NCBI RefSeq assembly: GCF_003815975.1
Contig: NZ_CP033932.1
Location: 2,023,001 to 2,087,000 of the forward strand
Direction of reading: 5' to 3'
Length of the DNA stretch: 64,000 nt
Source: Chryseobacterium bernardetii
GTDB lineage: Bacteria > Bacteroidota > Bacteroidia > Flavobacteriales > Weeksellaceae
The translations under genes were made by a program, and so were the position numbers. The notes under the pieces were generated by a model. That model searched no databases, was not told the DNA's origin, and saw only the letters and a list, made by a program, of their open reading frames with translations. The first letter of the stretch is position 1. Each line of letters begins with the position of its first letter. Below are positions 34,687 to 49,547 of the stretch, one piece after another.

Positions 34687-35337
34687 ATGATGGAAACCAA
34701 ATCACCATTTTTAGATACAGTATTTTTGCTGAGGAAAAATGAATGCATTACTCTTTTTTCCAATATCCGGGCTATTTCGTTAACGGAAGAGCAGGAAGCA
34801 GAAGTGTATTTTGAAGCAGAATTTGAAAAAGAGAGACTGGAATTTCTGTCCGATCAGCTAACATGTAATAAAACAACAGCGGTCTGGGCTGCAAAAGTGC
34901 TGTACTATAGTGCTCAACTCTATCTGGTAAGGGAAAAAACTGCTGATAATTTGGATAATTTAATTCCGGAATTTAAAGGAACGCGAGATATTTCCTCCAT
35001 CTTATCTGCTGATTTATCATTGAGATTTCTACCGGAAATTATTTTTGCTCTGAACTCAGCAGATCCCGAAGATCCACTCATTAAAATACTTGAAGAAATT
35101 CTCACAGAATTTCATTATTCAGGAGTTGGATATGATCTGGATCTGGGAAAAGTAAACTGGGAAGAAGAGCTGAAAGACAAAACCTACCGGAAATTATACC
35201 TGGAAAGAATTGTTGAAAAAAAAGATTATAAACTTGCGGAAATTCCGTTCATCAATAAACTGCTTATGGCAGAATTTGGAATGCATAAAGAAGCATTTTG
35301 GAGAGAATTAAAAATAATAACTGAAGAAAATCAATGA
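34687..35337 (+). CDS. ternary-system accessory protein (upstream of MoxR)
   Basis: 216-aa soluble helical protein. No catalytic motif is visible; KTTAVWAAKVLYYSAQLYLV and DPLIKILEEILTEFHYSGVG are the clearest blocks. It is the first gene of a six-gene overlapping operon with the MoxR ATPase, a vWA/propeller protein and membrane partners. Comparable genes at this place are classed as bpX-type domains of MoxR-vWA-beta-propeller ternary systems; I cannot assign a number. The ATG lies 4 nt after TATTTTTG, so the mRNA may be leaderless. Confidence 0.6.
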   Translation: MMETKSPFLDTVFLLRKNECITLFSNIRAISLTEEQEAEVYFEAEFEKERLEFLSDQLTCNKTTAVWAAKVLYYSAQLYLVREKTADNLDNLIPEFKGTRDISSILSADLSLRFLPEIIFALNSADPEDPLIKILEEILTEFHYSGVGYDLDLGKVNWEEELKDKTYRKLYLERIVEKKDYKLAEIPFINKLLMAEFGMHKEAFWRELKIITEENQ

Positions 35338-36467
35338 TGCAGCATATCAATACACTCAATACAGTTCTGAACTACGTAAAAGATACCTTTGTTGGTAAAA
35401 ATGATGTTGTAGATCTACTGGGAATCTGCCTTTTGGCAAGAGAAAATGCCTTTTTATACGGTCCTCCCGGTACTGCAAAATCAGCTATTGTAAGAACTTT
35501 GGCCAAAACTGTAAAAGACGGGAAGAATTTCGAGTATCTTTTAACCCGTTTTACAGAGCCGAACGAAATATTTGGTCCTTTTGATATCAGAAAATTAAAA
35601 GAAGGTGAACTTTTGACCAATACCGAAGGGATGATGCCTGAAGCTTCCATGGTTTTCCTGGATGAGATCTTCAATGCCAATTCCGCTATTTTGAATTCTC
35701 TTCTGATGGCTCTTAATGAAAAGATATTCAAAAGAGGAAAAGAAACAAAACATTTACCTGCTTTAATGTTCGTGGGAGCGAGTAACGTCCTTCCGGAAGA
35801 TGAAGCATTGAATGCATTATTCGACCGTTTTCTGGTAAGGATCAATGTTGATTATGTGAATCCTGAACTTTTACAGCAAGTACTTTTGGCAGGAAGAAAA
35901 CTGGAAAACGAAGAAGAAACAGAATTTCCGGAAATTCATGCCAATGAGATCAGAGAATTACAGAATCTGTGCAGAACAGTAGATTTAAAACCAATTTATG
36001 AAGTCTATCTGAATACCATCATGAGCCTGCGAAATACCGGAATTGCCATTTCGGACCGTAGAGCAGTAAAACTTCAGAACCTCATTGCTGCAAGTGCCCT
36101 TATTTGTGGAAGAAATGAAGCCATTCTTTCGGATCTTTGGGTTTTAAAACATATCTGGGATACCGAAGAACAGATTGAAATTCTGGAAGGGATCATTAAC
36201 CGGACCATTGAGAAAGATAATCATCCGGACTCTCATCCACAAGCCATGCAGAACAAAACTCCCAATCCGGAAGAAGTGATGAAGGATGTAAAAATCCTTG
36301 TAGATAAATGGAACCAGGGATCACTAAGCTTTGAAGAGCAAAACGTAATCAAAGATAAACTCAGATACCTGCAGACACGCTGCGACTGGATCAGAAATCC
36401 TGAACAAAAGCAATACATCCAACAGGAAATTGAAAGCTTATGGCAGAAAATCCTTCAGACAATATAA
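35334..36467 (+). CDS. MoxR-family AAA+ ATPase (RavA-like)
   Basis: 377 aa. Walker A YGPPGTAKSAIVRTL near residue 40, FTEPNEIFGPFD, Walker B MVFLDEIFNANSAILNSLL near residue 105, sensor-1 FVGASNVLP, and FDRFLVRI with the arginine finger. The C-terminal 100 residues are a helical lid plus a linker. MoxR ATPases act as chaperones that load or remodel vWA partners. Overlaps its neighbours by 4 nt upstream and 28 nt downstream, so it is the motor of this operon. Confidence 0.88.
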   Translation: MMQHINTLNTVLNYVKDTFVGKNDVVDLLGICLLARENAFLYGPPGTAKSAIVRTLAKTVKDGKNFEYLLTRFTEPNEIFGPFDIRKLKEGELLTNTEGMMPEASMVFLDEIFNANSAILNSLLMALNEKIFKRGKETKHLPALMFVGASNVLPEDEALNALFDRFLVRINVDYVNPELLQQVLLAGRKLENEEETEFPEIHANEIRELQNLCRTVDLKPIYEVYLNTIMSLRNTGIAISDRRAVKLQNLIAASALICGRNEAILSDLWVLKHIWDTEEQIEILEGIINRTIEKDNHPDSHPQAMQNKTPNPEEVMKDVKILVDKWNQGSLSFEEQNVIKDKLRYLQTRCDWIRNPEQKQYIQQEIESLWQKILQTI

Positions 36468-37183
36468 AAGAATTCTGGGCAGAAATCCCGCGGGCCGATG
36501 AAGATTATCTGGGCTCTATCCGTGACTGGAAAAATGTTCAGATCTCAACGGACGAAGAAATTCTATGGCTTAAAGGCTTTACGGAAGAACAGGTATGCGC
36601 TTCAGAACTTCATCAGCTACCCAATTTTTTGCTGTATGAGCTGCGGGATGGGCTGTTATTTAAAAAAGAAGCATTAGTTCCCAGTAAAAAAGTGAGAACA
36701 GCATTGCTTTGGATGCCGATTGATAAGGCACTGCGCCTAAGTTTTCCGGCTTCCAATCAAAACTATTTCGGGATCAGTGAAAAAGTTAGGGTCAGAATAA
36801 AAGAAAGTAACGAAGAACACCCGGTCATTGCTTTGGTAAGCAAAATTAAAGACATTAAAGAGAGTATTGCAGCGTTGCCAAAGTTCAGACTGGAAAAATT
36901 AGAATGGACTGTGATAGAAGATAAAGCTCTTTTTTTAGGAACCCCATTATTAAGTCTGCCGGGAAAAACATATTGGGCAAAAGACGGACATCTTTTGCCA
37001 TCCGGTTTTGATTTTGAGTTTAAAAATCTGAGTACATTTTTACAGCAAAAATATAATGAAGAATCAGATGGTTGGCTGTTATGGGATGAGAACGGAAATT
37101 ACCTTGCCATTAAAAAAACAGATTTTCGTCCCTTGTCCGTAAGTTCGTTCCGTCTTACTGAAAAATCAAGAGAATGGAATTAA
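36440..37183 (+). CDS. ternary-system protein (bpX-type)
   Basis: 247 aa, soluble. AEIPRADEDYLGSIRDWKNV near the N terminus, then a beta-rich body with VRTALLWMPIDKALRLSFP and GWLLWDENGNYLAIKK. No enzyme motif. Context between MoxR and the vWA protein, with overlaps on both sides, assigns it to the same complex. The bpX class label is inferred from context and general pattern. Confidence 0.6.
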   Translation: MAENPSDNIKEFWAEIPRADEDYLGSIRDWKNVQISTDEEILWLKGFTEEQVCASELHQLPNFLLYELRDGLLFKKEALVPSKKVRTALLWMPIDKALRLSFPASNQNYFGISEKVRVRIKESNEEHPVIALVSKIKDIKESIAALPKFRLEKLEWTVIEDKALFLGTPLLSLPGKTYWAKDGHLLPSGFDFEFKNLSTFLQQKYNEESDGWLLWDENGNYLAIKKTDFRPLSVSSFRLTEKSREWN

Positions 37184-39552
37184 AGGTATATTTTCAATCC
37201 TATGAAAACTATTTCTGGGAGTGGAAAACCGATGAAGACGTTCCCGGAGATTCCGGGTATCATGAAAATAACCTCCTCTCCATCCCGGGAGTGGGGGCAA
37301 TTGCTTACAGGCCTTATGTGATAGAAATTCTTAAAGAACTCCTGCCACAGGGATGGCCGCCGTTCGGAGCTTTACTGATGGCTGTATATGCAATGCAGGA
37401 AGGGTATACAGACTTTGCCGGCCCTCTAAGACATACCGCAAAAATTTACAGCATTGGAAACTTTGAGTTCAATGCAGAAAGAGCAATTGAATTTCTCGAA
37501 AAAATAAAATCACTTCCTAAAGTCTACAAACAAAAGCAGAATAAGATTGTACTGCTGCAGACTTTATTTAAAGATATTCACAACGGAGTATCTTCTGCTA
37601 ATGCTGAATCTTATCTCAGAATTTATTATAAAAGAACTCACGAACTGTCTGTCTGTGCAGAAAAACAACCTGCTCAACAAAGTGTTTTAAGCAGAGACTT
37701 AAAAGCGCTGGACCTTAATGATAGATTTCCAACCGCACAATCCATCATTGATGCCATGAAAGGGTTAATTGAAGAGCCAGAACTGGATGATGAGGTGGTA
37801 GAGGAAGAAGCTACCGCGGATACAGATAAAGATTTTATCAGGGAATTGATTGAAGAACCTAAAACATTCCAGGTGGGAAGCCTTATCAAAAGGATTTGGA
37901 GCGGACTAAAAATTCCTATGCGCCATCTTTCTCCGGGAGAGCAGCCCATTGGTGGAATTTCTGATATGACCAATAAGGGAGATTTTCACAGAATGCTTCT
38001 GTCAGAATTTGCCAATGAAGATGAGGTATTCATAAACCGTGTAGCCAATAATGAAGCCTTATACATCCAGAGAGAAATACCCCCTGAAGAAAATATCTTT
38101 GAAAGAATCATCCTGATTGACACTTCCTTAAGAAACTGGGGAACACCAAAAGTACTGGCTTTTGCATCTGCGATTGCCATAATTAAGCATCCAAAGGCCC
38201 ATTCGGAATGTAAAGTGATGGCATTGGGGCAGGCTGCAATTCCTATTTCCCTGGATCAGGTGGAAAATGTAATTGAAAACCTTAATCAAGTGAGTCCGGT
38301 GCTGGAAGTTTCCGATGCATTGGAAAAATTTTTTAATGAAGAGTATCCACAAAAAGATATGGAAGTCTTTTTTATAACTCATCAGGAAAACCTTGAAGAC
38401 GAAAAAATCCAAAAGGTCGTTCATCAAAACAGAGACAGACTTAAGTTTTTGGTAACCACCCTTTCAGATGGGGAAATTAATTTTTATAAACATCATAAAG
38501 GAGCAAGAAAGCATATACAGAAAATAAAACTTCCTCTTCAGGAATTATGGGCCAATCCGCCACAGCAGAAAAGAGCAGAAATCAATCTGAATGGAAAGAA
38601 AACTGATCTTCCATTGAACTACCCAATCCTGTTTCCTGTCCCTGTTAACCAGATGGCCAGGTTTTTATACGAGGGTGAATTTTTTATCCTGAGTTCAAAA
38701 AAACAATTGTTGAAAACTTATCTTTCTGATAATTATTATGACAGGCATTCCTATGATTATTATAAGACTTTTCATGGCTGCGAAGTAATGATTCAGAATA
38801 TTTCCGTAAAGCCAGCCGGACAGTTTGCACTCGCCAAAAATAAACAGCAGCATTTTATTCTCTGTCAATATCAGCCTGCTAAAAAATTAGTATCGAAGCT
38901 TAATCTGAATACAAGAGAATATTCTGAGATGAATGTCACCGGGCTGAATATTCCGGAAAACTATGCGTTAATCTATTTTGGAAAAAGCTTTTATCTTCAT
39001 CAGTTTGACAATCCTTTACTTTATAAGATCAATATTGAAGGAAATACCTCTGTAGAACCTCTTGATAATAAATATGATGATATAGATAAAAATACCACAA
39101 AAGTGAATACGGAAGTAGCCAAGCTAAACCGAAGTGGATTAAAAATTATAGGTAATTTTAATAAAATAGGTATTAACGCTAAAGACAATCTGGTTTTTTC
39201 AGGATGTGAAATAAATAGTGTTTATGAGAACACCATGAGCCTTTATAAAAACAGATTCGAGATCAAAATTTTTGCAGAGCAGAACAAAAATAAATATACC
39301 TTCCCGGATGGGAGTGAAATCATCACAGATTCCCGCGGAATGCTGACATTCAGAAGCAGTAATAAAGGCATAGAAGAATTTTATATGCCCACTACAACAT
39401 ACGGATTTCTTGCCCTGGCTACCCATACAGAATTCGGAGGATCGGAATATTATCTTCCGGAACAGACCTTATTGAAAATAAGAACCATGGAAGAAATGTA
39501 TAACCAATACTTAACGCCGTTTATAAGTCAGATTTTGGATTATGGAGCTTAG
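37174..39552 (+). CDS. vWA plus beta-propeller protein of the MoxR ternary system
   Basis: 792 aa. An N-terminal helical domain (PGVGAIAYRPYVIEILKELL, PPFGALLMAVYAMQ) is followed by an acidic linker (about 205-225), then a von Willebrand A domain at about 305-440 starting IILIDTSLRNWGTPKVLAFA. Its MIDAS reads DTSLR rather than DxSxS, so metal binding may be altered. The C-terminal ~330 residues are repeated beta strands consistent with a propeller (FILCQYQPAKKLVSKLNL, ENYALIYFGKSFYLHQF). It is the expected partner of the MoxR ATPase. Confidence 0.75.
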   Translation: MELKVYFQSYENYFWEWKTDEDVPGDSGYHENNLLSIPGVGAIAYRPYVIEILKELLPQGWPPFGALLMAVYAMQEGYTDFAGPLRHTAKIYSIGNFEFNAERAIEFLEKIKSLPKVYKQKQNKIVLLQTLFKDIHNGVSSANAESYLRIYYKRTHELSVCAEKQPAQQSVLSRDLKALDLNDRFPTAQSIIDAMKGLIEEPELDDEVVEEEATADTDKDFIRELIEEPKTFQVGSLIKRIWSGLKIPMRHLSPGEQPIGGISDMTNKGDFHRMLLSEFANEDEVFINRVANNEALYIQREIPPEENIFERIILIDTSLRNWGTPKVLAFASAIAIIKHPKAHSECKVMALGQAAIPISLDQVENVIENLNQVSPVLEVSDALEKFFNEEYPQKDMEVFFITHQENLEDEKIQKVVHQNRDRLKFLVTTLSDGEINFYKHHKGARKHIQKIKLPLQELWANPPQQKRAEINLNGKKTDLPLNYPILFPVPVNQMARFLYEGEFFILSSKKQLLKTYLSDNYYDRHSYDYYKTFHGCEVMIQNISVKPAGQFALAKNKQQHFILCQYQPAKKLVSKLNLNTREYSEMNVTGLNIPENYALIYFGKSFYLHQFDNPLLYKINIEGNTSVEPLDNKYDDIDKNTTKVNTEVAKLNRSGLKIIGNFNKIGINAKDNLVFSGCEINSVYENTMSLYKNRFEIKIFAEQNKNKYTFPDGSEIITDSRGMLTFRSSNKGIEEFYMPTTTYGFLALATHTEFGGSEYYLPEQTLLKIRTMEEMYNQYLTPFISQILDYGA

Positions 39553-41239
39553 AATAAAACCTTTCCCGAAAAACAGCTATCCTAAAAAAGGACTTTTAAT
39601 AAAAGGTTCTTCACCTGTGATATGGCTTCAGGAAATGGAAACACTGAGAATAAATCTGGATATGGTAAAGTCCTATGCTGTTCCGGCTGACAGTCCCAAT
39701 ATACTGTACGGCTGCTTTCTTATATTCAGCGATCATGCTCCACAGGAAATAGGAAGAAATGCTTATTTTCAATGTGTAGACAACAGATTATTTATTCCGG
39801 AAAATACAGCGTTTTATCCAAAAGTTAACCCTGAAGATTGGGACACGGTAGATTCAGATTTTCTCATCATGCATCCTGAATTCGGACTGGTGAAATTATC
39901 AGAACAGATTGATTGGCTGGAGCTGATCCAGGAGCTAGGAAAAATAGAAGAAACTATCAAAAAACCATCGAACGGTGTTAAAATCCCCCAAACCATAAAA
40001 AGTTATACGGTTGAAATGGATGAGGAAAAAATGCTCGAAGCATTACAGAAACCTCAAACCGAAGAAGAATGGATGAACAGCCTGCCATTTGACCTGAAAA
40101 AAGTAATGGCGGGAAACAAAAAAGAAATTGAAAAATATTTAAAATACATAGAAAAATATCCTGAAAGAGCTATTGAATTAGGTGTGCCTTTGGATATTAT
40201 GGGGACTTCCAGAGGAAATGGATTTGGGAAATTTACATGGCTGGAACAATTATTCGGCGGTGGATCTGGTGGAAAACAAGAAACGGCGGGTTCCCGGAAT
40301 TTCCGTAGAATATTTTGGGCTGTTATTGTTATTGCAATTGTTTTAAAAATAGTCTTACCAGCTGATGATAGAATTCTTCAGGAAGAAAATACTGTTTCTT
40401 CAGGAAAGATTGTAGCAGATGCCGTAAAAACTCCTTCAGATATGATTGCTTTTCACTCCGGGGTTTCTGAAATTGACCAAAAGATAGACTCCATGTATTT
40501 TGGTGAAAGAAAAAGCCTGTCTAATGAACTTTTGAATGCCGGGCTGCAGGAAAGCAAAACGGAAAAAGAAAAAGAAGAATATAAAAAGAAAGGCGGAAGG
40601 AATGTAGGGGAAATTGGCCATGATATTCAAAAGCTCAGCAATAAAGAGCAGAAAAGCAGAGATTCCCTTAAAATAATTTATACCAAAAGGATAACCAGGC
40701 ATATTCAGGAAAGAAGTGAAGTGCTGAAACGTAAAATTTCAGATTCCTTAAAACAATATACCAAAGGAAAACCGGTAAATGGAGATGTTGTTAAGTATCT
40801 TTTAAAGAGAAAACAGGTTCTGATGCAGGATTCTTTGGGAAAACTCTATGGAACCATTGATATGGCAGATATGGCTTCTCCTTCAGCCATTAAAGATTCA
40901 AAAATAAAAGGAGTGGAATCTGGTAATGGCTCATTAAAAAAAGAGCCCCCTGTTTCCGATATTGTATACATGGTTATTCTGATGATTGCAGGAGTTGGAT
41001 TATATTCCTTCCTTTTTAAAAATAAATCATTAAATCTGGGCGGAGATAATGTTCCGGCTTGGGTGAAATTGCTTTTGATTGCTATTCTGGTTGTGATGCT
41101 GGTCTATCTGTTTTATCCATTAGTTAAAATGTTTGGCTATAACTGGTTCGTTTGGGTACTGGCTGTTGGAGTCATGTTATTACTTTACCGTTTGTTCAGA
41201 GAAGACAAAACCATTTTAAAATCCGATGATGATGAATAA
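39542..41239 (+). CDS. membrane-anchored ternary-system protein
   Basis: 565 aa. The N terminus (LIKGSSPVIWLQEMETLRIN) resembles bpX-type domains. A transmembrane helix lies near residues 258-278 (FWAVIVIAIVLKIVLPA), then a long Lys/Glu-rich coiled segment, and three more helices after residue 475 (IVYMVILMIAGVGLYSFLF, LLLIAILVVMLVYLFYPL, WFVWVLAVGVMLLLYRLF). It overlaps neighbours on both sides and probably anchors the complex to the membrane. Confidence 0.65.
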   Translation: MELRIKPFPKNSYPKKGLLIKGSSPVIWLQEMETLRINLDMVKSYAVPADSPNILYGCFLIFSDHAPQEIGRNAYFQCVDNRLFIPENTAFYPKVNPEDWDTVDSDFLIMHPEFGLVKLSEQIDWLELIQELGKIEETIKKPSNGVKIPQTIKSYTVEMDEEKMLEALQKPQTEEEWMNSLPFDLKKVMAGNKKEIEKYLKYIEKYPERAIELGVPLDIMGTSRGNGFGKFTWLEQLFGGGSGGKQETAGSRNFRRIFWAVIVIAIVLKIVLPADDRILQEENTVSSGKIVADAVKTPSDMIAFHSGVSEIDQKIDSMYFGERKSLSNELLNAGLQESKTEKEKEEYKKKGGRNVGEIGHDIQKLSNKEQKSRDSLKIIYTKRITRHIQERSEVLKRKISDSLKQYTKGKPVNGDVVKYLLKRKQVLMQDSLGKLYGTIDMADMASPSAIKDSKIKGVESGNGSLKKEPPVSDIVYMVILMIAGVGLYSFLFKNKSLNLGGDNVPAWVKLLLIAILVVMLVYLFYPLVKMFGYNWFVWVLAVGVMLLLYRLFREDKTILKSDDDE

Positions 41240-42251
41240 ACAGAAATTTATAGACAAGTTTATGGCTGCCTTTGTATTGCTGGCCATGTTTAAAGTCATC
41301 GGAATCGTGGCCCAGCTGTTTCATGAGAGTTTTTGGAGCGTCATCGGAACTTTAGCCATTTTTCTGATTGTAGCATTTATTATCCTGATGGTAATTGCTT
41401 CCTTGAAAGATAAAGAACAAAATAAGCAGAATTCCAGAAGAGGACGAGCAGCCGGAGGAAATTTCTATCTGGAAAACTCCCTGTTTGACAGGATCAGGAG
41501 CAAATACGAAGATCTTGCCCAAAAATATATTGAAGAAAAAGATTACAAAAAAGCAGCAAAAGTTTATATGAACCTGTTGCAGGATTATTATAGAGGAGCA
41601 AAAACACTGGAAGATGGTGAATTTTATAATGAAGCAGCAGCAGTATATCTTAAAAAGCTAAAAAGTAAATCAGATGCTGCCCATTGCTATGAAAAAGCTA
41701 AACAGTACAAAAAAGCTATTGATCTTTACAAAGAAATGGAGCAGAAAGAAAAAGTGGGTGATCTTTACAGGGAAATCAATGACGTGAAAAATGCCCATAT
41801 CTATTACCAGATGGTTGCGGATGATTATACCTCCAATAATCAGATGGTAAAAGCTTCTTTAGTATACCGGAAGAAAATGGAAAAGCCGGAAGAAGCCCAA
41901 AAAGTACTATTAAAAGGCTGGGAAGAAGATAAAGATACTTTCAACTGTCTGAATAACTACTTTGCCAATATTTTTGATGTTAAAAAACTGGAATCAGAAA
42001 TACAGAGAATGTATGAAAAAACTCCGGCTCATAAAAAAATCATCTATTTGGAAGCTATGAAGCTTGAGTTTAAAAAAGATCCTCAGTTACAGTCTGCCAC
42101 CAAAGAAATTGCATACAGGATCATAGCTGAAAAAGTAGAAAGCCGTTCAGAAATTGTTAACGAGCTGAAACATTTTAATCCTGACGATGAAGTGATCCTT
42201 AAAGATATTTCAAGGTTTAAAACAGGAAGAAATAAAATGTTTAAACATTAA
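41226..42251 (+). CDS. membrane-anchored TPR-like protein of the ternary system
   Basis: 341 aa. Two N-terminal transmembrane helices (about 8-28 and 34-58) precede TPR/SEL1-like helical repeats: YIEEKDYKKAAKVYMNLLQD, YNEAAAVYLKKLKSKSDAAH, CYEKAKQYKKAIDLYKEM, LYREINDVKNAHIYYQMV. The solenoid likely recruits partners in the cytosol. Last gene of the operon, overlapping the previous one by 14 nt. Confidence 0.7.
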   Translation: MMMNKQKFIDKFMAAFVLLAMFKVIGIVAQLFHESFWSVIGTLAIFLIVAFIILMVIASLKDKEQNKQNSRRGRAAGGNFYLENSLFDRIRSKYEDLAQKYIEEKDYKKAAKVYMNLLQDYYRGAKTLEDGEFYNEAAAVYLKKLKSKSDAAHCYEKAKQYKKAIDLYKEMEQKEKVGDLYREINDVKNAHIYYQMVADDYTSNNQMVKASLVYRKKMEKPEEAQKVLLKGWEEDKDTFNCLNNYFANIFDVKKLESEIQRMYEKTPAHKKIIYLEAMKLEFKKDPQLQSATKEIAYRIIAEKVESRSEIVNELKHFNPDDEVILKDISRFKTGRNKMFKH

Positions 42252-42684: not shown

Positions 42685-42749
42685 AATGAGAGACAGTCAT
42701 TTAGGTAATTAAGATATCTGCAAAATATTGCGGACGGAAATCTCTTATT
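42685..42749 (+). ncRNA. armless tRNA-like hairpin with Cys (GCA) anticodon loop
   Basis: AATGAGAGA and TCTCTTATT form a nine-pair outer stem (one G-U). Inside, GATAT-CTGCAAA-ATATT has exactly the form of a tRNA anticodon stem-loop with anticodon GCA. There are no recognisable D- or T-arms. It lies behind terminator 1, where readthrough from leader ORF 1 would transcribe it. Confidence 0.4.
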
Positions 42750-42802: not shown

Positions 42803-42833
42803 TTGCAGGTTCCAAAAATTCATATTTACTTTG
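42803..42833 (+). promoter_or_regulatory. promoter of leader ORF 2 and the tRNA-like array
   Basis: TTG at 42803-42805, 20-nt spacer, TTACTTTG at 42826-42833. The 42583-42802 region holds the Cys-like hairpin and nothing else evident. Confidence 0.6.
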
Positions 42834-42903: not shown

Positions 42904-43029
42904 ATGAAACAATTGCATAACATACTTAATCAGTATTCAGAACTATTCGGACAGGAGCCGGCAGGTACTGTGTGTGCTTATGATCGTGAAATTGTGAATA
43001 AAAGGTGCTTATATACGTGGGTCAGCTAA
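42904..43029 (+). CDS. 41-aa leader ORF 2 containing all 20 amino acids
   Basis: ATG 42904 to TAA 43027 with the A-rich translation start region usual in this group. The 41 residues contain all 20 amino acids and 34 different codons, including CCG, ACG, AGG, GTC, AGC, CTA and GAG, which are uncommon in AT-rich Flavobacteriia genes. It has no sequence similarity to leader ORF 1 beyond this property. It precedes terminator 2 and the tRNA-like array. AGGTGCTT in codons 34-36 can pair with the terminator 5' arm. Read as a pan-tRNA sensor; the role is inference. Confidence 0.6.
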   Translation: MKQLHNILNQYSELFGQEPAGTVCAYDREIVNKRCLYTWVS

Positions 43030-43052
43030 TGATCTATCACGTCAGAATATAA

Positions 43053-43084
43053 ACAAGCGCCTCCCAAAAAGAGGCGCTTGTTTT
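43053..43084 (+). terminator. attenuator-type terminator 2
   Basis: ACAAGCGCCTC and GAGGCGCTTGT form an 11-bp perfect stem with T tail. The 5' arm AAGCGCCT can pair with AGGTGCTT at 43003-43010 in leader ORF 2 (eight pairs, one G-U). The tRNA-like array starts 3 nt after it. Confidence 0.85.
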
Positions 43085-43086
43085 AT

Positions 43087-43159
43087 GGTTTCTTTAGCTT
43101 ATTTGGTAAAGCGCCGGTCTGTGGAACCGGAGAACAGGGTTCGATCCCCGGAGATACCC
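43087..43159 (+). tRNA. degenerate tRNA-like, His (GTG)
   Basis: Acceptor GGTTTCT/AGATACC with one T-T mismatch, D-stem GCTT/AAGC, anticodon loop CTGTGGA in a perfect CCGGT/ACCGG stem, T-stem with an A-G mismatch. The discriminator is C, as in tRNA-His, but the extra G at -1 is missing. Confidence 0.7.
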
Positions 43160-43168
43160 CAAACATAA

Positions 43169-43242
43169 AATCTCATAGCTCAAATGGTTAGAGCACCGGT
43201 CTTTTAAACCGGGGGTTGAAAGTTCAAATCTTTCTGGGATTA
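43169..43242 (+). tRNA. tRNA-like, Lys (TTT)
   Basis: All arms pair: acceptor AATCTCA/TGGGATT (unusual A1-U72 start), D-stem GCTC/GAGC, anticodon loop CTTTTAA, T-stem GAAAG/CTTTC with loop TTCAAAT, discriminator A. Confidence 0.8.
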
Positions 43243-43249
43243 CTAAAAC

Positions 43250-43323
43250 GGTTCCGTAGCTCAACCGGATAGAGCATGGGTTTTCTAAACCCAGTGTTAC
43301 AGGTTCGAATCCTGTTGAGGTCA
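43250..43323 (+). tRNA. degenerate tRNA-like, Arg (TCT)
   Basis: D-, anticodon (TGGGT/ACCCA, loop TTTCTAA) and T-arms (ACAGG/CCTGT) are sound, but the acceptor GGTTCCG/TGAGGTC has four G-U pairs and a C-A mismatch. Charging seems doubtful. Confidence 0.65.
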
Positions 43324-43329
43324 AAAAAA

Positions 43330-43400
43330 GGTCTATTGAGGTAACGGTAACCTGCCCGACTGTCTCTTGGGTACTGCGAGTTCGATTCTCGCATAGACCG
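43330..43400 (+). tRNA. tRNA-like, Asp (GTC)
   Basis: Perfect acceptor GGTCTAT/ATAGACC, anticodon loop CTGTCTC, T-arm GCGAG/CTCGC, discriminator G as in tRNA-Asp. The D-arm is reduced to three pairs (GGT/ACC) and the whole is only 71 nt. Confidence 0.75.
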
Positions 43401-43403
43401 CAA

Positions 43404-43463
43404 AGATTCATGGAACATTTCTGCTCCGGCTGTCTCCCGGAAAAAGATGTTGAAGTGAATCTG
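43404..43463 (+). tRNA. armless tRNA-like, Asp (GTC)
   Basis: Only 60 nt: perfect acceptor AGATTCA/TGAATCT, perfect anticodon stem TCCGG/CCGGA with loop CTGTCTC, discriminator G, but no canonical D-arm and no T-loop. It resembles the reduced tRNAs of some mitochondria. It directly follows the other Asp-like gene. Confidence 0.55.
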
Positions 43464-43468
43464 CAAAG

Positions 43469-43540
43469 CTGGAAAGATAACGGTGGTTGTTTACCCGTCT
43501 TGGACGCGGGAGGTCGCAAGTTCGAATCTTGCTTTCCAGA
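43469..43540 (+). tRNA. tRNA-like, Pro (TGG)
   Basis: Acceptor CTGGAAA/TTTCCAG starting with the C1-G72 pair characteristic of bacterial tRNA-Pro, anticodon loop CTTGGAC, T-arm GCAAG/CTTGC, discriminator A. D-arm reduced (AAC/GTT). Confidence 0.7.
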
Positions 43541-43550
43541 CAGGATGATA

Positions 43551-43632
43551 AGCAATGAGTAATCAGTAATTATAGATTGAAAAAGTAGTTTTCATCATCA
43601 TTATTCATCACTAATTACTCATTACTTATTAA
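43551..43632. repeat. inverted repeat of the AATGAGTAAT type
   Basis: TAAGCAATGAGTAAT near 43550 and ATTACTCATTACTTA near 43614 can form a long hairpin. Related hairpins lie at 44675-44738 and 44832-44916, and a half copy near 44028-44056. They separate the tRNA-like genes. Confidence 0.6.
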
Positions 43633-43640
43633 AAGAGGCC

Positions 43641-43713
43641 GCGGGAATGGTGGAACGGTAGACACACTTGATTTAGGATCAAGGCGCTGAGGGTTCGAAT
43701 CCCTCTTCCCGTA
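43641..43713 (+). tRNA. tRNA-like, Leu (TAG) with short variable loop
   Basis: Acceptor GCGGGAA/TTCCCGT (G-U end pair), Leu-type D-arm GGTGGAACGGTAGACAC, anticodon loop TTTAGGA, T-arm GAGGG/CCCTC, discriminator A. A normal tRNA-Leu has a long variable arm; here only GCGCT remains. Confidence 0.75.
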
Positions 43714-43718
43714 CAAAC

Positions 43719-43790
43719 GATTTTGTAGCTCAATGGTAGAGCGCTGGTCTGTTAAACCAGAAGTTGAAAGTTCGAATCTTTCCGGAATCG
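43719..43790 (+). tRNA. tRNA-like, Asn (GTT)
   Basis: Acceptor GATTTTG/CGGAATC with two G-U pairs, D-stem GCTC/GAGC, anticodon loop CTGTTAA, T-arm GAAAG/CTTTC, discriminator G as in tRNA-Asn. Confidence 0.78.
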
Positions 43791-43825
43791 CAGTAACTAA
43801 ATGTTAATTGTTTCAGGAGAAAAGT

Positions 43826-43890
43826 AAAAGTTTGTCGAGAGCAGAAGATCTTTACGCCAAAACACGAAAAATACAGACAGACTTTTTCTT
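43826..43890 (+). ncRNA. hairpin RNA family, copy A
   Basis: AAAAGTTTGTC and GACAGACTTTT form an 11-pair stem; the loop carries GAGAGCAGAAGATC and then TTTACGCCAAAA. Ends in a T run. One of four related elements in the array. Confidence 0.6.
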
Positions 43891-43948
43891 TCTCAATACA
43901 GCAGTTAGAATTTAATGCAAATATGATTAATAAATTTTAGGTAAAAAT

Positions 43949-44006
43949 AAAGTCTGTCTAGCGCAGAAGTTCAAACAAAAAATTGGGACAGACTTTGTTT
44001 TTTTTT
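43949..44006 (+). ncRNA. hairpin RNA family, copy B
   Basis: AAAGTCTGTC and GACAGACTTT form a perfect stem; loop begins TAGCGCAGAAGTTC; followed by a nine-T run, so it is also a terminator. Confidence 0.65.
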
Positions 44007-44066
44007 GAATAATAGGCAGTAAAAAAATTACTCAATATCCATTGCTTATTACTCATATTTAAATCT

Positions 44067-44148
44067 GATGGTTCGCCGAAGTGGAAGAGTCGGGGCGGTC
44101 TGCAAAACCGTTGCGTAAGCTGAGTGGGTTTGAATCCCATAGCCATCT
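44067..44148 (+). tRNA. tRNA-like, Cys (GCA) with class II variable arm
   Basis: Acceptor GATGGTT/AGCCATC, anticodon stem GCGGT/ACCGT with loop CTGCAAA, T-arm GTGGG/CCCAT, discriminator T as required for tRNA-Cys. The D-arm (GCCGAAGTGGAAGAGTCGGG) and a 13-nt variable arm with GC/GC pairing are of the Tyr/Ser type, unlike normal tRNA-Cys. Confidence 0.75.
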
Positions 44149-44223
44149 CAAAATAAAGCTTGAAATTGAAATGTAGGGTATCATTCATCAATTATAGCTA
44201 AAAATATCCTTTATTAAGAAAAG

Positions 44224-44290
44224 AAAACGTCTGTCAGGAGCAGAAGATCTTTAAGCCAAAAACACAAATACAGACAGGCTTTTTCTTTTT
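44224..44290 (+). ncRNA. hairpin RNA family, copy C
   Basis: GTCTGTC and GACAGGC form the stem; loop AGGAGCAGAAGATCTTTAAG is nearly that of copy A; T-rich tail. Confidence 0.6.
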
Positions 44291-44351
44291 AAAAGAGGAA
44301 CTAAGGATGGAGCAGAGATTGTTTATCTCTTATCATTCATCATTAATATTT

Positions 44352-44486
44352 GGAAGTACGCCGAAGTTGGAGAGTCGGGGCAGACTGATATGAGGAACGA
44401 ATTGAACGATTCCTTAAAAAAATGAAAAAGACAGAGTTAAAATCTGTTGCTTCATTGCTGAGTAGGTTCGAATCCTGCTGCTTTCA
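44352..44486 (+). tRNA. tRNA-Tyr-like gene interrupted in the anticodon loop
   Basis: Aligned with the Tyr-like gene at 44745-44828 the two match throughout, but here a 51-nt insertion follows CAGACTG (44381-44387) and precedes the AAAATCTG 3' side. The insertion contains its own hairpin (AGGAA/TTCCT near 44393-44413). Acceptor GGAAGTA/TGCTTTC and the T-arm keep pairing by compensating changes. Removing 51 nt would give a 7-nt loop with anticodon GAA or GAT rather than GTA, depending on the junction. No group I intron features are evident in so short a piece. Confidence 0.7.
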
Positions 44487-44491
44487 CAAAA

Positions 44492-44562
44492 CCGCTGATA
44501 ATGTAATGGCAGCATGCAGGAAATGTACTCTTGTTGTTTAGGTTCGATTCCTGGTCAGTTGG
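44492..44562 (+). tRNA. degenerate tRNA-like, possibly Thr (TGT)
   Basis: Acceptor CCGCTGA/TCAGTTG with one mismatch, D-region AATGTAATGGCAGCA shared with the Gln- and Trp-like genes, anticodon stem CAGGA/TCTTG with loop AATGTAC (U33 replaced by A), T-arm TTAGG/CCTGG. The most decayed full-length member. Confidence 0.5.
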
Positions 44563-44604
44563 TCAAAGAAAAAAGAAAATATAAAATGCTCAATATAATT
44601 TTCT

Positions 44605-44672
44605 GAAGAAAGGCTTGTCAAGCGTAGAAGTTCTTTTTGTTAAGCAAATTTTAAAGACAAGCTTCTTCTTTT
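44605..44672 (+). ncRNA. hairpin RNA family, copy D
   Basis: GGCTTGTC and GACAAGCT form the stem, extended by GAAGAA/TTCTTC; loop AAGCGTAGAAGTTCTTTT; T-rich tail. Confidence 0.6.
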
Positions 44673-44674
44673 AT

Positions 44675-44738
44675 CATGAATAATGAGCAATAAGTAATCA
44701 ATGATAGAAGAGTCATTTTATTAGTACTCATTACTCAT
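44675..44738. repeat. inverted repeat of the AATGAGTAAT type
   Basis: ATGAATAATGAGCAATAAGT on the left and ACTCATTACTCAT on the right; same family as 43551-43632. Confidence 0.5.
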
Positions 44739-44744
44739 AAACAG

Positions 44745-44828
44745 GGAAGTACGCCGGAGTTGGAGAGTCGGGGCAGACTGTAAATCTGTTGCTTTATTGC
44801 TGAGTAGGTTCGAATCCTACTACTTCCA
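44745..44828 (+). tRNA. tRNA-like, Tyr (GTA)
   Basis: Class II: acceptor GGAAGTA/TACTTCC, anticodon CAGA-CTGTAAA-TCTG, long variable arm TTGCTTTATTGCTGA, T-arm GTAGG/CCTAC, discriminator A. The best-preserved member of the array. Confidence 0.85.
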
Positions 44829-44831
44829 CAA

Positions 44832-44916
44832 TAAATGAATGATAAGCAATAAGTAATGAATAATAGAAAAACAGTTTTAATCATTACTCATTACCAATTA
44901 CTTATTACTCATTCAT
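44832..44916. repeat. inverted repeat of the AATGAGTAAT type
   Basis: ATGAATGATAAGCAATAAGT left and ACTTATTACTCATTCAT right form a long hairpin between the Tyr- and Gln-like genes. Confidence 0.6.
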
Positions 44917-44923
44917 TTAAATC

Positions 44924-44995
44924 TGATTCATAGTGTAATGGGCAGCACACAAGATTTTGATTCTTGGAGTTCAGGTTCGAGTCCTGATGAATTAA
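44924..44995 (+). tRNA. tRNA-like, Gln (TTG)
   Basis: Acceptor TGATTCA/TGAATTA with the U1-A72 pair typical of tRNA-Gln, D-region TAGTGTAATGGGCAGCA, anticodon stem CAAGA/TCTTG with loop TTTTGAT, T-arm TCAGG/CCTGA. Discriminator is A, not the usual G. Confidence 0.78.
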
Positions 44996-45003
44996 CAGCA
45001 TTT

Positions 45004-45123: not shown

Positions 45124-45609
45124 ATGGAAACGCAACAACAAACATGGCAGAATATGAATGGAAAAATTTTCCAGGATTCTATCACACAGCTGGTAGAAAA
45201 AGCCATTATTCGCGAACAGGCAAACGGACACCGTCTGAAAGTATGTGTGGGATCAGACTCTCACGTATATGGAGATGCTATTAATTATGCTACGGCAGTA
45301 GTATTTATTCGTGAGGGAAAAGGAGCGTTTACCTTTATCAGAAAAGAAAGAGAAATACAGACCATCAGTATTAAAGAGCGAATGCTGAACGAAGTCAACA
45401 AATCCGTTGAGATTGCTTATGCGATTTGTGCTGTATTGGACACTTATGGAGTAGAAATGGAGGTACACGCAGATATTAATACCGATCCGGATTTTAAATC
45501 CAATGTAGCATTAAAAGATGCCATGGGATATATTCTGGGGATGGGATATGTATTTAAAGCAAAACCTTTTGCCTTCGCAAGTTCCAATTGTGCCGATATG
45601 ATGGTGTAA
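45124..45609 (+). CDS. YkuK/DUF458 ribonuclease H-like protein
   Basis: 161 aa. LKVCVGSDSHVYGDAINYAT is the first strand block with the putative catalytic Asp, and VEMEVHADINTDPDFKSNVA and ILGMGYVFKAKPFAFASSNC-like AFASSNCAD complete the RNase H fold of the YkuK family. No activity is established. It is the first protein gene behind the tRNA-like array and may share its transcript; an RNA-processing role is an inference from that. Confidence 0.8.
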   Translation: METQQQTWQNMNGKIFQDSITQLVEKAIIREQANGHRLKVCVGSDSHVYGDAINYATAVVFIREGKGAFTFIRKEREIQTISIKERMLNEVNKSVEIAYAICAVLDTYGVEMEVHADINTDPDFKSNVALKDAMGYILGMGYVFKAKPFAFASSNCADMMV

Positions 45610-45682: not shown

Positions 45683-46054
45683 ATGGAAATGACCAAAAGA
45701 CTATTGTTTCTGGATGATATAAGATATCCTATTGAAGCTTATCATTATACCAAACAGGACATATTCCTCAGAAGAGACTGGCATATTGTTCGGAATTACG
45801 ATCAATTTGTCAATAGAATCCTGGAAAAAGGACTTCCGGAAATGATTTCTTTTGATCATGACCTTGCCGATGAGCACTATCTGAACCAGGATACGAAAGA
45901 ATTTGTTGAAAAAACAGGATATGATTGTGCAAAATGGCTGGTAGAATACTGTATGGATCATTATTTAGACATACCGAACTTCTATTGCCACTCTATGAAT
46001 CCTGTAGGAAAGGAGAATATTGAAAGACTTTTAAAAAACTTTAAAAAATTATAA
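45683..46054 (+). CDS. cyclic-phosphate-processing receiver-domain protein (cREC)
   Basis: 123 aa. RLLFLDDIRYPIEA, PEMISFDHDLADEHYL and NFYCHSMNPVGKENIERLL define the cREC family, a receiver-like fold with extra His/Asp residues predicted in comparative genomics to resolve 2',3'-cyclic phosphates at RNA ends. The stop overlaps the start of the next gene (TAATG), and the gene is two positions from an RNA ligase: the expected order for an RNA end-healing and sealing unit. Confidence 0.82.
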   Translation: MEMTKRLLFLDDIRYPIEAYHYTKQDIFLRRDWHIVRNYDQFVNRILEKGLPEMISFDHDLADEHYLNQDTKEFVEKTGYDCAKWLVEYCMDHYLDIPNFYCHSMNPVGKENIERLLKNFKKL

Positions 46055-46626
46055 TGGACATTTTCAGATTCATTCAGGATATTAAAAATCATCTTAACTT
46101 CAGCTTTAATGAAGTAGACAAATGGTTTGAAAAAAACAGTACAATTCTGAACTATCAGCCATCAAAAGGAGGCTGGACGGTTCAGCAGATTTTAGAGCAC
46201 ATCTATCTTACGAATTTCTATTTACTGATTCTCATTGAAAAGGGGGCAAAAAAAGCAATGCGGAACTCTTTAGAACTTAACCTCGAATCTGAAATTAAAA
46301 ATTATAATTTCAATAAAGAAAACTTTGAAAAAGTAGGTGAATATGGTGCTTTCGAATGGATAAGACCGGAGCATATGGAGCCAAAAGGACAGCAGGATCT
46401 AAAAGAAATCAGAGAGATAATTGCTCAACAATATCATCAATGTCTGAACTATTTGGAATTGATGAAAAATGGCGAAGGTTTACTCTATAAAACAACCATG
46501 ACAGTAAATGATCTGGGTAAAATTAATGTATATGAGTACATTTATTTTCTCTCACTTCATGCGAAAAGACATATCACCCAAATGGAAAGCAACCAATCAG
46601 AAATGATTAAAAACCAAAAAAAATGA
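46054..46626 (+). CDS. DinB-family protein
   Basis: 190 aa. GGWTVQQILEHIYLTNFYLL and YIYFLSLHAKRHITQME hold the His ligands of the DinB/YfiT four-helix metal site. Family members include thiol transferases and stress proteins. It overlaps the RNA ligase gene by 4 nt, so it is part of the repair operon, but its job there is unknown. Confidence 0.8.
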   Translation: MDIFRFIQDIKNHLNFSFNEVDKWFEKNSTILNYQPSKGGWTVQQILEHIYLTNFYLLILIEKGAKKAMRNSLELNLESEIKNYNFNKENFEKVGEYGAFEWIRPEHMEPKGQQDLKEIREIIAQQYHQCLNYLELMKNGEGLLYKTTMTVNDLGKINVYEYIYFLSLHAKRHITQMESNQSEMIKNQKK

Positions 46627-47636
46627 TTTTCAAAACATATAATTCAATAGAAAATGCTTACCAAACCCGCGTGATCGATCAGATCAGGCTGCAGGGTTTT
46701 GGGGATGAGGTTTTCATCGTACAGGAGAAAGTTCATGGTGCCAATTTCTCTTTCTTTACCGACGGAAAGGAAATTAAGATTGCCAAAAGAACAGCTTTCA
46801 TTGAGAAAGATGAAAAATTTTACAATGCACATCAGATTTTGGAACAATACAGAAAAAATGTAATTAATTTGTTTCAAAAAGTGAAAACAATATACCCGGA
46901 TGTTGAAACAGTAGTAATCTATGGTGAATTGTTCGGCGGCGGTTACAAACATAAAGAAGTAGAGCCCGTAAAAGGAGCGGTAAGAGTGCAGGCAGGTATT
47001 GAATATGCCCCTTACAATGATTTTTATGCATTTGATATTAAGTTGAATGGGGTTACTTATTTGGATACGGATATCATCAACTCAATTTTTGAGGAGACAG
47101 GATTTTTCTATGCTAAAACCTTATTTGAAGGTACTTTAGAAGAAGCTTTGAGATTCCCGAATGTTTTCAATTCTAAAATCCCAGCGTGGTTAGGGTTGCC
47201 GGAAATGAACAATATGTGTGAAGGAACCATTATCAAGACCTTAAAAACCAGGTATTTCGGAAACGGAGCCAGAGTCATTCTTAAAAACAAAAATGAAAAA
47301 TGGATCGAAAGGTCTAAAGTAGTTAGAAAACAAGAGAAGACAGTTCAAAAAACAGTTCGTTTTGGTGAAAAGGCTCAAAATATCTGGGAAGAAATTCAAG
47401 CATATATAACAGCCAACAGATTGAATAATGTGATGAGCAAAATAGGTGAATTTGAACCCAGAATGTTGGGCAAAGTCGTAGGCCTTTTTGCGCAGGATAT
47501 TTTGGAAGATTTTGAAAAAGATTTTCCGTCAGCTTTCACTGCAATAGAAAAAGATGAACAGAAGAAGATCAATAAAAAGTTGAATTCTGCAGTCATAGAT
47601 TGTGTAAAAGAAGAGTTGATGACTCTTAAAGTATAG
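46623..47636 (+). CDS. Rnl2-type RNA ligase
   Basis: 337 aa. FIVQEKVHGANFSFF holds the adenylated lysine (motif I, KxHGxN), VIYGELFGGGYKH is motif III, MCEGTIIKTLKTRYF motif IV and RVILKNKNEKWIE motif V. A C-terminal helical domain (about 245-337) matches T4 Rnl2-like ligases, which seal nicks in structured RNA such as cleaved tRNAs. Together with cREC and the adjacent tRNA-like array it forms the core of a predicted tRNA repair operon. A hairpin terminator follows at once. Confidence 0.9.
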   Translation: MIFKTYNSIENAYQTRVIDQIRLQGFGDEVFIVQEKVHGANFSFFTDGKEIKIAKRTAFIEKDEKFYNAHQILEQYRKNVINLFQKVKTIYPDVETVVIYGELFGGGYKHKEVEPVKGAVRVQAGIEYAPYNDFYAFDIKLNGVTYLDTDIINSIFEETGFFYAKTLFEGTLEEALRFPNVFNSKIPAWLGLPEMNNMCEGTIIKTLKTRYFGNGARVILKNKNEKWIERSKVVRKQEKTVQKTVRFGEKAQNIWEEIQAYITANRLNNVMSKIGEFEPRMLGKVVGLFAQDILEDFEKDFPSAFTAIEKDEQKKINKKLNSAVIDCVKEELMTLKV

Positions 47637-48995: not shown

Positions 48996-49547
48996 ATGAA
49001 AACAACAGAAAATATACTTATTATAGACCTTGAAGCCACGTGTTGGGAAAACCGTCCGCCAAGAGGTCAGGAAAGCGAGATTATAGAAATCGGAGTTTGT
49101 ATTATGAATGCAAAAACCGGTAAGATCTCAAAAAATGAAGGAATCTTAATAAAACCCCAACATTCAAAGGTGAGTCCGTTCTGTACGGAACTTACCACTC
49201 TTACCCAAAATATGCTGGATAGTGAGGGAATTATGCTGGATGATGCCTTTGATATTCTGAGAGCAGAATACGATTCAGAAGAATTAACCTGGGCAAGCTA
49301 CGGAAACTATGATCTGAATATGCTTCAGAACCAGTCCAGAAGATTTTATGTGGATTATCCGTTAAGTGATGACCACATCAATGTCAAAACCTTATTCGGA
49401 GAAATTCATCCTACAATAAGAAAGAGTGTAGGCATGCAAAGAGCCTTGAACGAACTTGGATTTAAATTAGACGGAACCCATCACCGAGGTGTGGATGATG
49501 CCCGAAATATTGCCAAGATTTTGCATTGGTGCATTCAGAATAAGTAA
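48996..49547 (+). CDS. DEDDh 3'-5' exonuclease, ERI1/KapD-like
   Basis: 183 aa, single domain. NILIIDLEATCWENRPP gives the first Asp-Glu pair, SEIIEIGVCIMNAKTG the next strand, and HHRGVDDARNIAKIL the His-Asp of motif III. Members of this branch trim RNA 3' ends in eukaryotes; the bacterial ones are little studied. Its place behind the RNA ligase and RNase Z-like genes fits an RNA 3'-end role. Confidence 0.87.
   Translation: MKTTENILIIDLEATCWENRPPRGQESEIIEIGVCIMNAKTGKISKNEGILIKPQHSKVSPFCTELTTLTQNMLDSEGIMLDDAFDILRAEYDSEELTWASYGNYDLNMLQNQSRRFYVDYPLSDDHINVKTLFGEIHPTIRKSVGMQRALNELGFKLDGTHHRGVDDARNIAKILHWCIQNK

Follow-up and report, generated by a model that had tools for sequence, protein, structure and literature searches.

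A leader ORF with codons for nearly all amino acids and a predicted attenuator ahead of a tRNA array and RNA-repair genes in Chryseobacterium

The trp and his amino-acid operons are controlled by ribosome-mediated transcription attenuators, and the attenuators known so far respond to a single amino acid, to a small group of them, or to drugs that target the ribosome. The locus described here lies in a stretch of 64,000 nucleotides from Chryseobacterium bernardetii (contig NZ_CP033932.1), referred to below as the window. The ilvB1 attenuator of M. tuberculosis (PMC13236596), likewise ribosome-mediated, has in common with trp, his and the predicted Chryseobacterium switch a short translated leader and mutually exclusive antiterminator and terminator structures, with completion of the leader blocking the antiterminator. 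Leaders of the trp, his and ilvB1 (PMC13236596) type are built from repeated codons for a single amino acid or a handful, and the genes under their control are biosynthetic, whereas in the Chryseobacterium leader nearly the full set of amino acids is spread out, with tRNA and RNA-repair genes behind it. The E. coli toiL (PMC12121999) and whiB7 (PMC13236596) systems resemble the predicted switch in that a short ORF converts ribosome stalling into stress-response expression; toiL differs in acting through translation repression and Rho (PMC12121999), and the available parts of these papers held no statement of selected amino-acid completeness for either system.

In Salmonella, damaged tRNA turns on RNA-repair genes, the rsr-yrlBA-rtcBA operon being induced by tRNA fragments via RtcR; the Salmonella sensor is a CARF-domain protein that binds the fragments (PMC7790460), whereas here a cis-acting leader would sense the absence of usable tRNA and the ligase is of the Rnl2 type. 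The Anabaena trn operon, 26 tRNA genes that are silent until induced by translation stress, is likewise a normally redundant tRNA array linked to such stress, but it is plasmid-borne and controlled by a transcriptional repressor, TrcR, and the available part of its description mentions no leader or attenuator (PMC10272220). The bpMoxR, bpX0 and bpX1 domains encoded just upstream in the window are those of the MoxR-vWA-beta-propeller ternary conflict systems, in whose description, as available, 'tRNA' and 'RNA repair' occur in the reference list only (PMC7159879). No described pan-amino-acid attenuator was found in the literature covered, which left out preprints and most subscription papers. 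As far as that search reaches, the type of switch is known, and the breadth of tRNAs read and the genes controlled have not been described.

Along the window the locus is arranged as follows.

35334-42251: MoxR-vWA-beta-propeller type conflict cluster (bpMoxR, bpX0, bpX1; assigned with Pfam), directly upstream.
42688-42737, plus strand: upstream cis-element, GAGAGACAGTC ... GCGGACGG, from an alignment of the window with ten loci of other genera.
42803-42833, plus strand: promoter-like TTG (-33) and TTACTTTG (-7), picked by eye against the Bacteroidota consensus and conserved in the cross-genus alignment; a candidate promoter.
42904-43029, plus strand: leader ORF of 41 codons with an ATG start, matched genus-wide; sensing part, codons 1-29.
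43003-43062, plus strand: antiterminator hairpin of 22 pairs, with the final codons and all stop codons inside it; one of its sides is the terminator 5' arm.
43053-43081, plus strand: intrinsic terminator of 11 pairs (43053-43063 with 43071-43081), between leader and tRNA genes.
43087-44996, plus strand: tRNA array (His, Lys, Arg, Asp, Pro, Leu, Asn, Cys, Tyr, Gln), ten tRNAs by ARAGORN, eight of which also reach the Rfam gathering score.
45124-45609, plus strand: RNaseH-like protein (PF04308), first gene past the array; downstream in 110/110 loci.
45683-46054, plus strand: cyclic-phosphate-processing receiver-domain protein, cREC (PF20274); downstream in 96/110 loci.
46623-47636, plus strand: T4 Rnl2-type RNA ligase (PF09414, PF18043); within about 9 kb downstream in 80/110 loci.
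48996-49547, plus strand: RNase_T-family 3'-5' exonuclease (PF00929); downstream in 87/110 loci.

Downstream genes were counted on the strand of the leader in 110 loci, and in 97 of these the MoxR-type cluster upstream has its final gene within 3 kb. An earlier note on the window had described a 41-codon ORF with all 20 amino acids and 34 different codons, followed by an 11-bp terminator and placed ahead of a tRNA-like array and repair operon. Counting over the ORF gave 20/20 amino acids and 34 different codons, the fold contains the terminator with its 11 pairs, and the ten tRNAs together with the RNA-repair genes across the 110 loci bear out the placement. Every downstream protein tested belongs to an RNA-processing type and none is biosynthetic; neither an RtcB ligase nor an RtcA cyclase was present among the ten window proteins run against Pfam. 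No Rfam leader, the T-box riboswitch included, was detected at the gathering score, the only matches in the window being tRNAs and a Flavo-1 RNA (RF01705; 61090-61172, minus strand, 63.3 bits). Nor does the leader hold a run of codons for one operon-made amino acid; its 20 kinds are spread over 34 codons.

Our best reading, to which we assign a probability of roughly 0.6, is a ribosome-mediated transcription attenuator whose leader samples many different tRNAs and which lies ahead of the tRNA array and RNA-repair operon. After polymerase leaves the promoter, a ribosome would translate the 41-codon leader. With all needed charged tRNAs present, it would reach the stop codon inside the antiterminator and melt that hairpin; the terminator would then fold and transcription would end ahead of the array. 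Were a tRNA cleaved, uncharged or missing, the ribosome would stall within codons 1-29, the RNA from codon 34 onward would pair with the terminator 5' arm, and polymerase would continue into the spare tRNAs, presumably functional, and the RNA-repair genes. Since the sensing codons hold a near-complete set of amino acids, the loss of almost any tRNA would be a trigger; a tRNA-cleaving toxin or nuclease, starvation, or any other block of translation may be the natural one. A more specific version we regard as evenly poised: that the leader is a pan-tRNA integrity sensor in which selection keeps codons for nearly every amino acid, that loss of almost any tRNA to a toxin, defence nuclease or phage leads by antitermination to back-up tRNAs and RNA repair, and that unrelated leaders in several Bacteroidota genera have converged on completeness. 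If true, a leader selected for amino-acid completeness would amount to a novel way of sensing that works as an OR-gate across the tRNA pool, and would open two questions to direct test: by what means bacteria detect the cleavage of tRNA regardless of the species attacked, and for what reason diverged tRNA arrays adjoin RNA-repair and MoxR-type conflict genes in some bacteria.

The leader peptide is MKQLHNILNQYSELFGQEPAGTVCAYDREIVNKRCLYTWVS (41 residues). The chance of 20 kinds in 41 codons, a calculation raised in the earlier note, is low: random 41-mers drawn with the amino-acid usage of the window contain a mean of 16.4 kinds, with P(20)=0.0042, and stretches of 41 residues from real window proteins give P(20)=0.0018. 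The probability of at least 34 different codons is 0.001, or 0.037 given the peptide. Codons 1-29 cover 19 kinds, all except Trp, whose sole codon (39) is behind the antiterminator arm; for this reason no more than 19 amino acids could be reported by stalls on this leader. In the folding model Trp39 comes too late for sensing, and the label 'pan-amino-acid' is slightly overstated. The arm codons AGG, TGC and TTA (Arg-Cys-Leu, RCL) are minority codons, with usages of 0.18, 0.36 and 0.28 in the window.

The antiterminator was evaluated by RNA folding. AGGTGCTT in codons 34-36 pairs with AAGCGCCT in the terminator 5' arm. The earlier note had proposed this as an 8-pair switch; the fold bears the pairing out, but its extent was underestimated, as these pairs form the base of the 22-pair antiterminator hairpin. 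RNA that extends only to the terminator 5' arm folds into the single hairpin 43003-43062 at -18.5 kcal/mol, which none of 200 shuffles equalled, and inclusion of the terminator 3' arm favours the terminator plus a smaller hairpin (-29.3). In silico, antiterminator and terminator cannot form together, and the antiterminator takes in the final part of the leader ORF. To represent a stalled ribosome, as that note had suggested, RNA was treated as free from 15 nt past the first base of the A-site codon. Modelled stalls at ten tested codons within 1-29 left the outer helix with a mean pair probability of 0.94-0.95; a stall at codon 30 reduced it to 0.64 with four pairs left, and at codon 31 it was 0. 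Codons 1-29 were taken as the sensing part because the antiterminator survives modelled stalls there and is gone at codon 31.

The antiterminator is part of the minimum-energy fold at 110/110 loci. In the alignment, which took in 91 of 92 distinct segments (the divergent L107 was left out), every row pairs along the outer helix of the antiterminator, and this helix barely varies. Covariation of the antiterminator, with pairs counted on the named structure over these 91 rows, did not exceed that of shuffles, because the outer pairs hardly vary. Structure prediction from the alignment returned the terminator only, as mutually exclusive folds allow. Within the terminator 97.9% of cells are paired, and 14 sequences carry a G-C to A-U double change at one pair.

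Of 118 genomes from the genus, among them the one that holds the window, 112 gave a leader match at E<=1. The 110 loci analysed include the window's own genome; G048 and G102 (L140, L141) enter no count. An ATG start is present in 110/110 loci, 21 leaders terminate early at TAG, and length changes are in-frame and located before the arm only. The arm codons are nearly invariant (AGG in 109/109, TGC in 104/109 and TTA in 107/109 loci), with the frame shifted at the arm in L109 and L321. Twenty amino acids are represented in 40 of the 110 leaders, 19 in 36, 18 in 26 and 17 in 8. Sixteen amino acids are each found in at least 108 leaders; those often lost are Ala (present in 85), Thr (77), Val (94) and Trp (79), and ahead of the RCL codons Trp occurs in 5/109 loci and Thr in 40/109. 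Leaders of 27 further congeners average 18.8 kinds (range 16-20). Six congeners with 99% complete genomes and neither a leader nor an RNA-model match also lack the RNaseH-like gene, and two fragmented congeners without a leader match have that gene near a contig start. The dN/dS of the leader ORF is ~0.50 over 5450 pairs, and close pairs differ at codon positions 1, 2 and 3 in 657, 378 and 577 cases, the third position not being the most changed. Judged from these comparisons, single residues appear weakly held, as would be expected if the set matters, and this is not proof of translation.

The arrangement extends beyond the genus. An RNA model of the element matched 113/246 genomes of the family, in 9/33 genera by tally, some of the weak matches being chance ones. 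Leaders in other genera of the family cover 20 kinds by codon 25 (L249), 19 (L250 and L251), 19 by codon 23 (L317) and 17 (L257, also a weak match to the RNA model and retained for its array and leader). In Bizionia (L204), found through an RNA ligase 48% identical to that of the window, 20 kinds are reached by codon 30 at a locus with a list of 15 tRNAs. The leaders of these family genera and Bizionia are dissimilar in sequence and alike in plan, with 17-20 kinds; two g54 genomes carry 19 kinds in 70 codons. Three g9 species (L245, L247, L248) keep leader and terminator with 19-20 kinds, and no tRNA was found in the stretch examined, which at one of them is little over 2 kb downstream. Eight other weak RNA-model matches (L252-L256, L258-L260) were rejected as chance, sharing no arm motif and having no plus-strand tRNA.

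Upstream regions share the consensus GAGAGACAGnC ... GCGGACAGG, possibly a regulator site or a structured RNA, and GAGACAGNC precedes the leader in 108/110 loci of the genus. The cis-element pattern hit 7 of the 395 genomes searched in the class, against a single control match, and in its loosened form 28/346 of the order, against 0 control matches. Behind each of the nine hits examined outside the family and g54 (seven g35, one f35, one f20) lie a short ORF, a terminator and tRNA genes, and their leaders hold 15-19 kinds. At least five pairs between the last codons and the terminator 5' arm were present in 20/20 leaders, against 5.8 expected from shuffles, the leaders being partly related. 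Twelve viral contigs with a cis-element match had no tRNA within 3.5 kb or within the shorter stretch examined.

Several null models addressed whether amino-acid coverage is selected. Shuffling within alignment columns of 108 of the 110 peptides (L109, which lacks RCL, and the divergent L107 dropped) lowered mean coverage from 17.72 to 17.17 (sd 0.06), and 0/1000 shuffles reached the observed value. The drop was largest for Tyr, Phe, Cys, Ala and Arg, with Val in the opposite direction. Simulating columns on the ligase tree gave 16.75 (sd 0.56) against an observed 17.83, reached by 11/500 simulations; this null used 77 tips (the ligase is present in 80/110 loci; two partial ones and L109 were dropped), and among single residues Tyr alone was clearly above its own null. 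The tree-based excess is modest, and the site model behind it is crude. Eighteen leaders, hand-chosen as divergent and not fully independent, sum to 323 kinds against 289.3 expected (sd 5.6). The seven from the window's family account for 134 against 112.5 (0/50000) and the other eleven for 189 against 176.8 (p=0.003); without Bizionia the remaining ten give 169 against 160.5 (p=0.024), one having 15 kinds only. In this set the inner ATG was taken for L325 and L332-L334; the outer starts would give 18 kinds for L325 and 19 for L333.

These results favour the earlier suggestion that coverage is conserved while sequence changes: the shuffles, the tree null and the 17-20 kinds of the dissimilar leaders all agree with it. 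Its expectation that coverage is kept in homologous loci holds for the own genus, most other genera of the family and Bizionia, but g35, g54 and two other families are near chance. Coverage is not strictly complete: the 110 leaders hold 17-20 kinds, with Ala, Thr, Val and Trp often lost and Trp usually outside the sensing part. The plan is thus older and wider than near-complete coverage, which is marked within the family and in Bizionia and slight in the other groups. Several results count against the attenuator reading: the modest tree-based excess, the near-chance coverage of the distant leaders, the scarcity of Trp and Thr ahead of the RCL codons, antiterminator covariation no higher than in shuffles, a dN/dS no lower than ~0.50, the frame shifts of L109 and L321, and the g9 leaders with no tRNA array found.

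The strongest of the alternatives, though an unlikely one, is that the same attenuator is tuned to a vulnerable subset of tRNAs, roughly that of the array, near-complete coverage following from the size of the subset. Array content was counted at 80 loci with >5 kb downstream, where tRNA-His is the commonest (71/80 genomes) and, in line with this idea, tRNAs for Ala, Val and Gly never occur. In a post hoc test, the amino acids that leaders retain are served by more frequent array tRNAs than Ala, Thr, Val and Trp are (p=0.008). Array frequency also correlates with how far residues in leaders exceed their proteome level (rho 0.48, p=0.03), the ratios being 4.1 for Cys, 2.1 for His and Gln, 1.75 for Arg and 0.49 for Ala. 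However, across all 20 amino acids, the frequency of retention shows no correlation with that of the tRNA in arrays (rho 0.22, p=0.35). Gly is always kept in the leaders and never found in those 80 arrays, Glu is common in arrays and depleted in leaders (0.54), and Val tRNA occurs in Bizionia arrays and Gly tRNA in g54 arrays.

Less likely still is a general sensor of blocked translation, by ribosome-targeting drugs or ribosome damage, resembling toiL or the whiB7 uORF, in which residue identity would be irrelevant and coverage incidental. When folded without any ribosome the antiterminator forms too, so general translation blocks should also induce the operon, and the distant leaders with coverage near chance retain the plan. 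The toiL uORF senses several drug classes (PMC12121999). Against this explanation, coverage is above chance in the family and Bizionia, and losses are compensated. That the leader instead yields a functional small peptide or small RNA ending at the terminator, with the array under its own control, is very improbable: dN/dS <1 within the genus and the conserved terminator would fit, but peptide similarity is unrecognisable between most genera while the upstream element, the array and the pairing between end codons and terminator all persist, and RNA pairing explains the near-invariant arm codons.

The array begins with tRNA-His at 43087 (ARAGORN), and more tRNA-like stretches lie between and after its ten tRNAs. 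Nine array tRNAs were compared with housekeeping tRNAs of the same anticodon: eight are 59-73% identical and Gln 89%; the array tRNA-Cys had no counterpart among the housekeeping tRNAs compared. The array tRNA-Asp (43330-43401) has the loop CTGTCTC in place of the housekeeping CTGTCAC, a change at position 37 that possibly alters cleavage or reading. The spacers between tRNAs contain repeats, GTCTGTC..(A)GCGCAGAAG ... GACAGACTTT, at about 43826-44010, 44212-44290 and 44617-44680, and one was also seen in L245, where a phosphoesterase-like gene (by eye) stands next to leader and terminator.

The genome encodes a second RNA-ligase-like gene (G000:C1:3851331-3852272), 33% identical to the window's ligase. 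No tRNAs were found near the RNA-ligase relatives of other genomes (L312, L314-L316), no RNaseH-like relatives were found among viral contigs, and a ligase search of plasmids returned two hits at 25% identity. In genus g11 a Ro60/TROVE-like protein (L249, 5843-7360, by eye) is encoded downstream of the array.

Within the cis-element, GAGAGACAGTC at 42688-42698 is the reverse complement of the anticodon-arm loop and stem of the array tRNA-Asp (near 43360), and also of a stand-alone hairpin with the loop CTGTCTC (43426-43440). A stand-alone hairpin of that type is present in 104/110 loci by a rough rule. Exact complements of 10-11 nt between cis-element and array occur in 83/108 loci, and shuffled controls reached at least 10 nt in 18/108; as a match between sequences, this complementarity is no more than suggestive.
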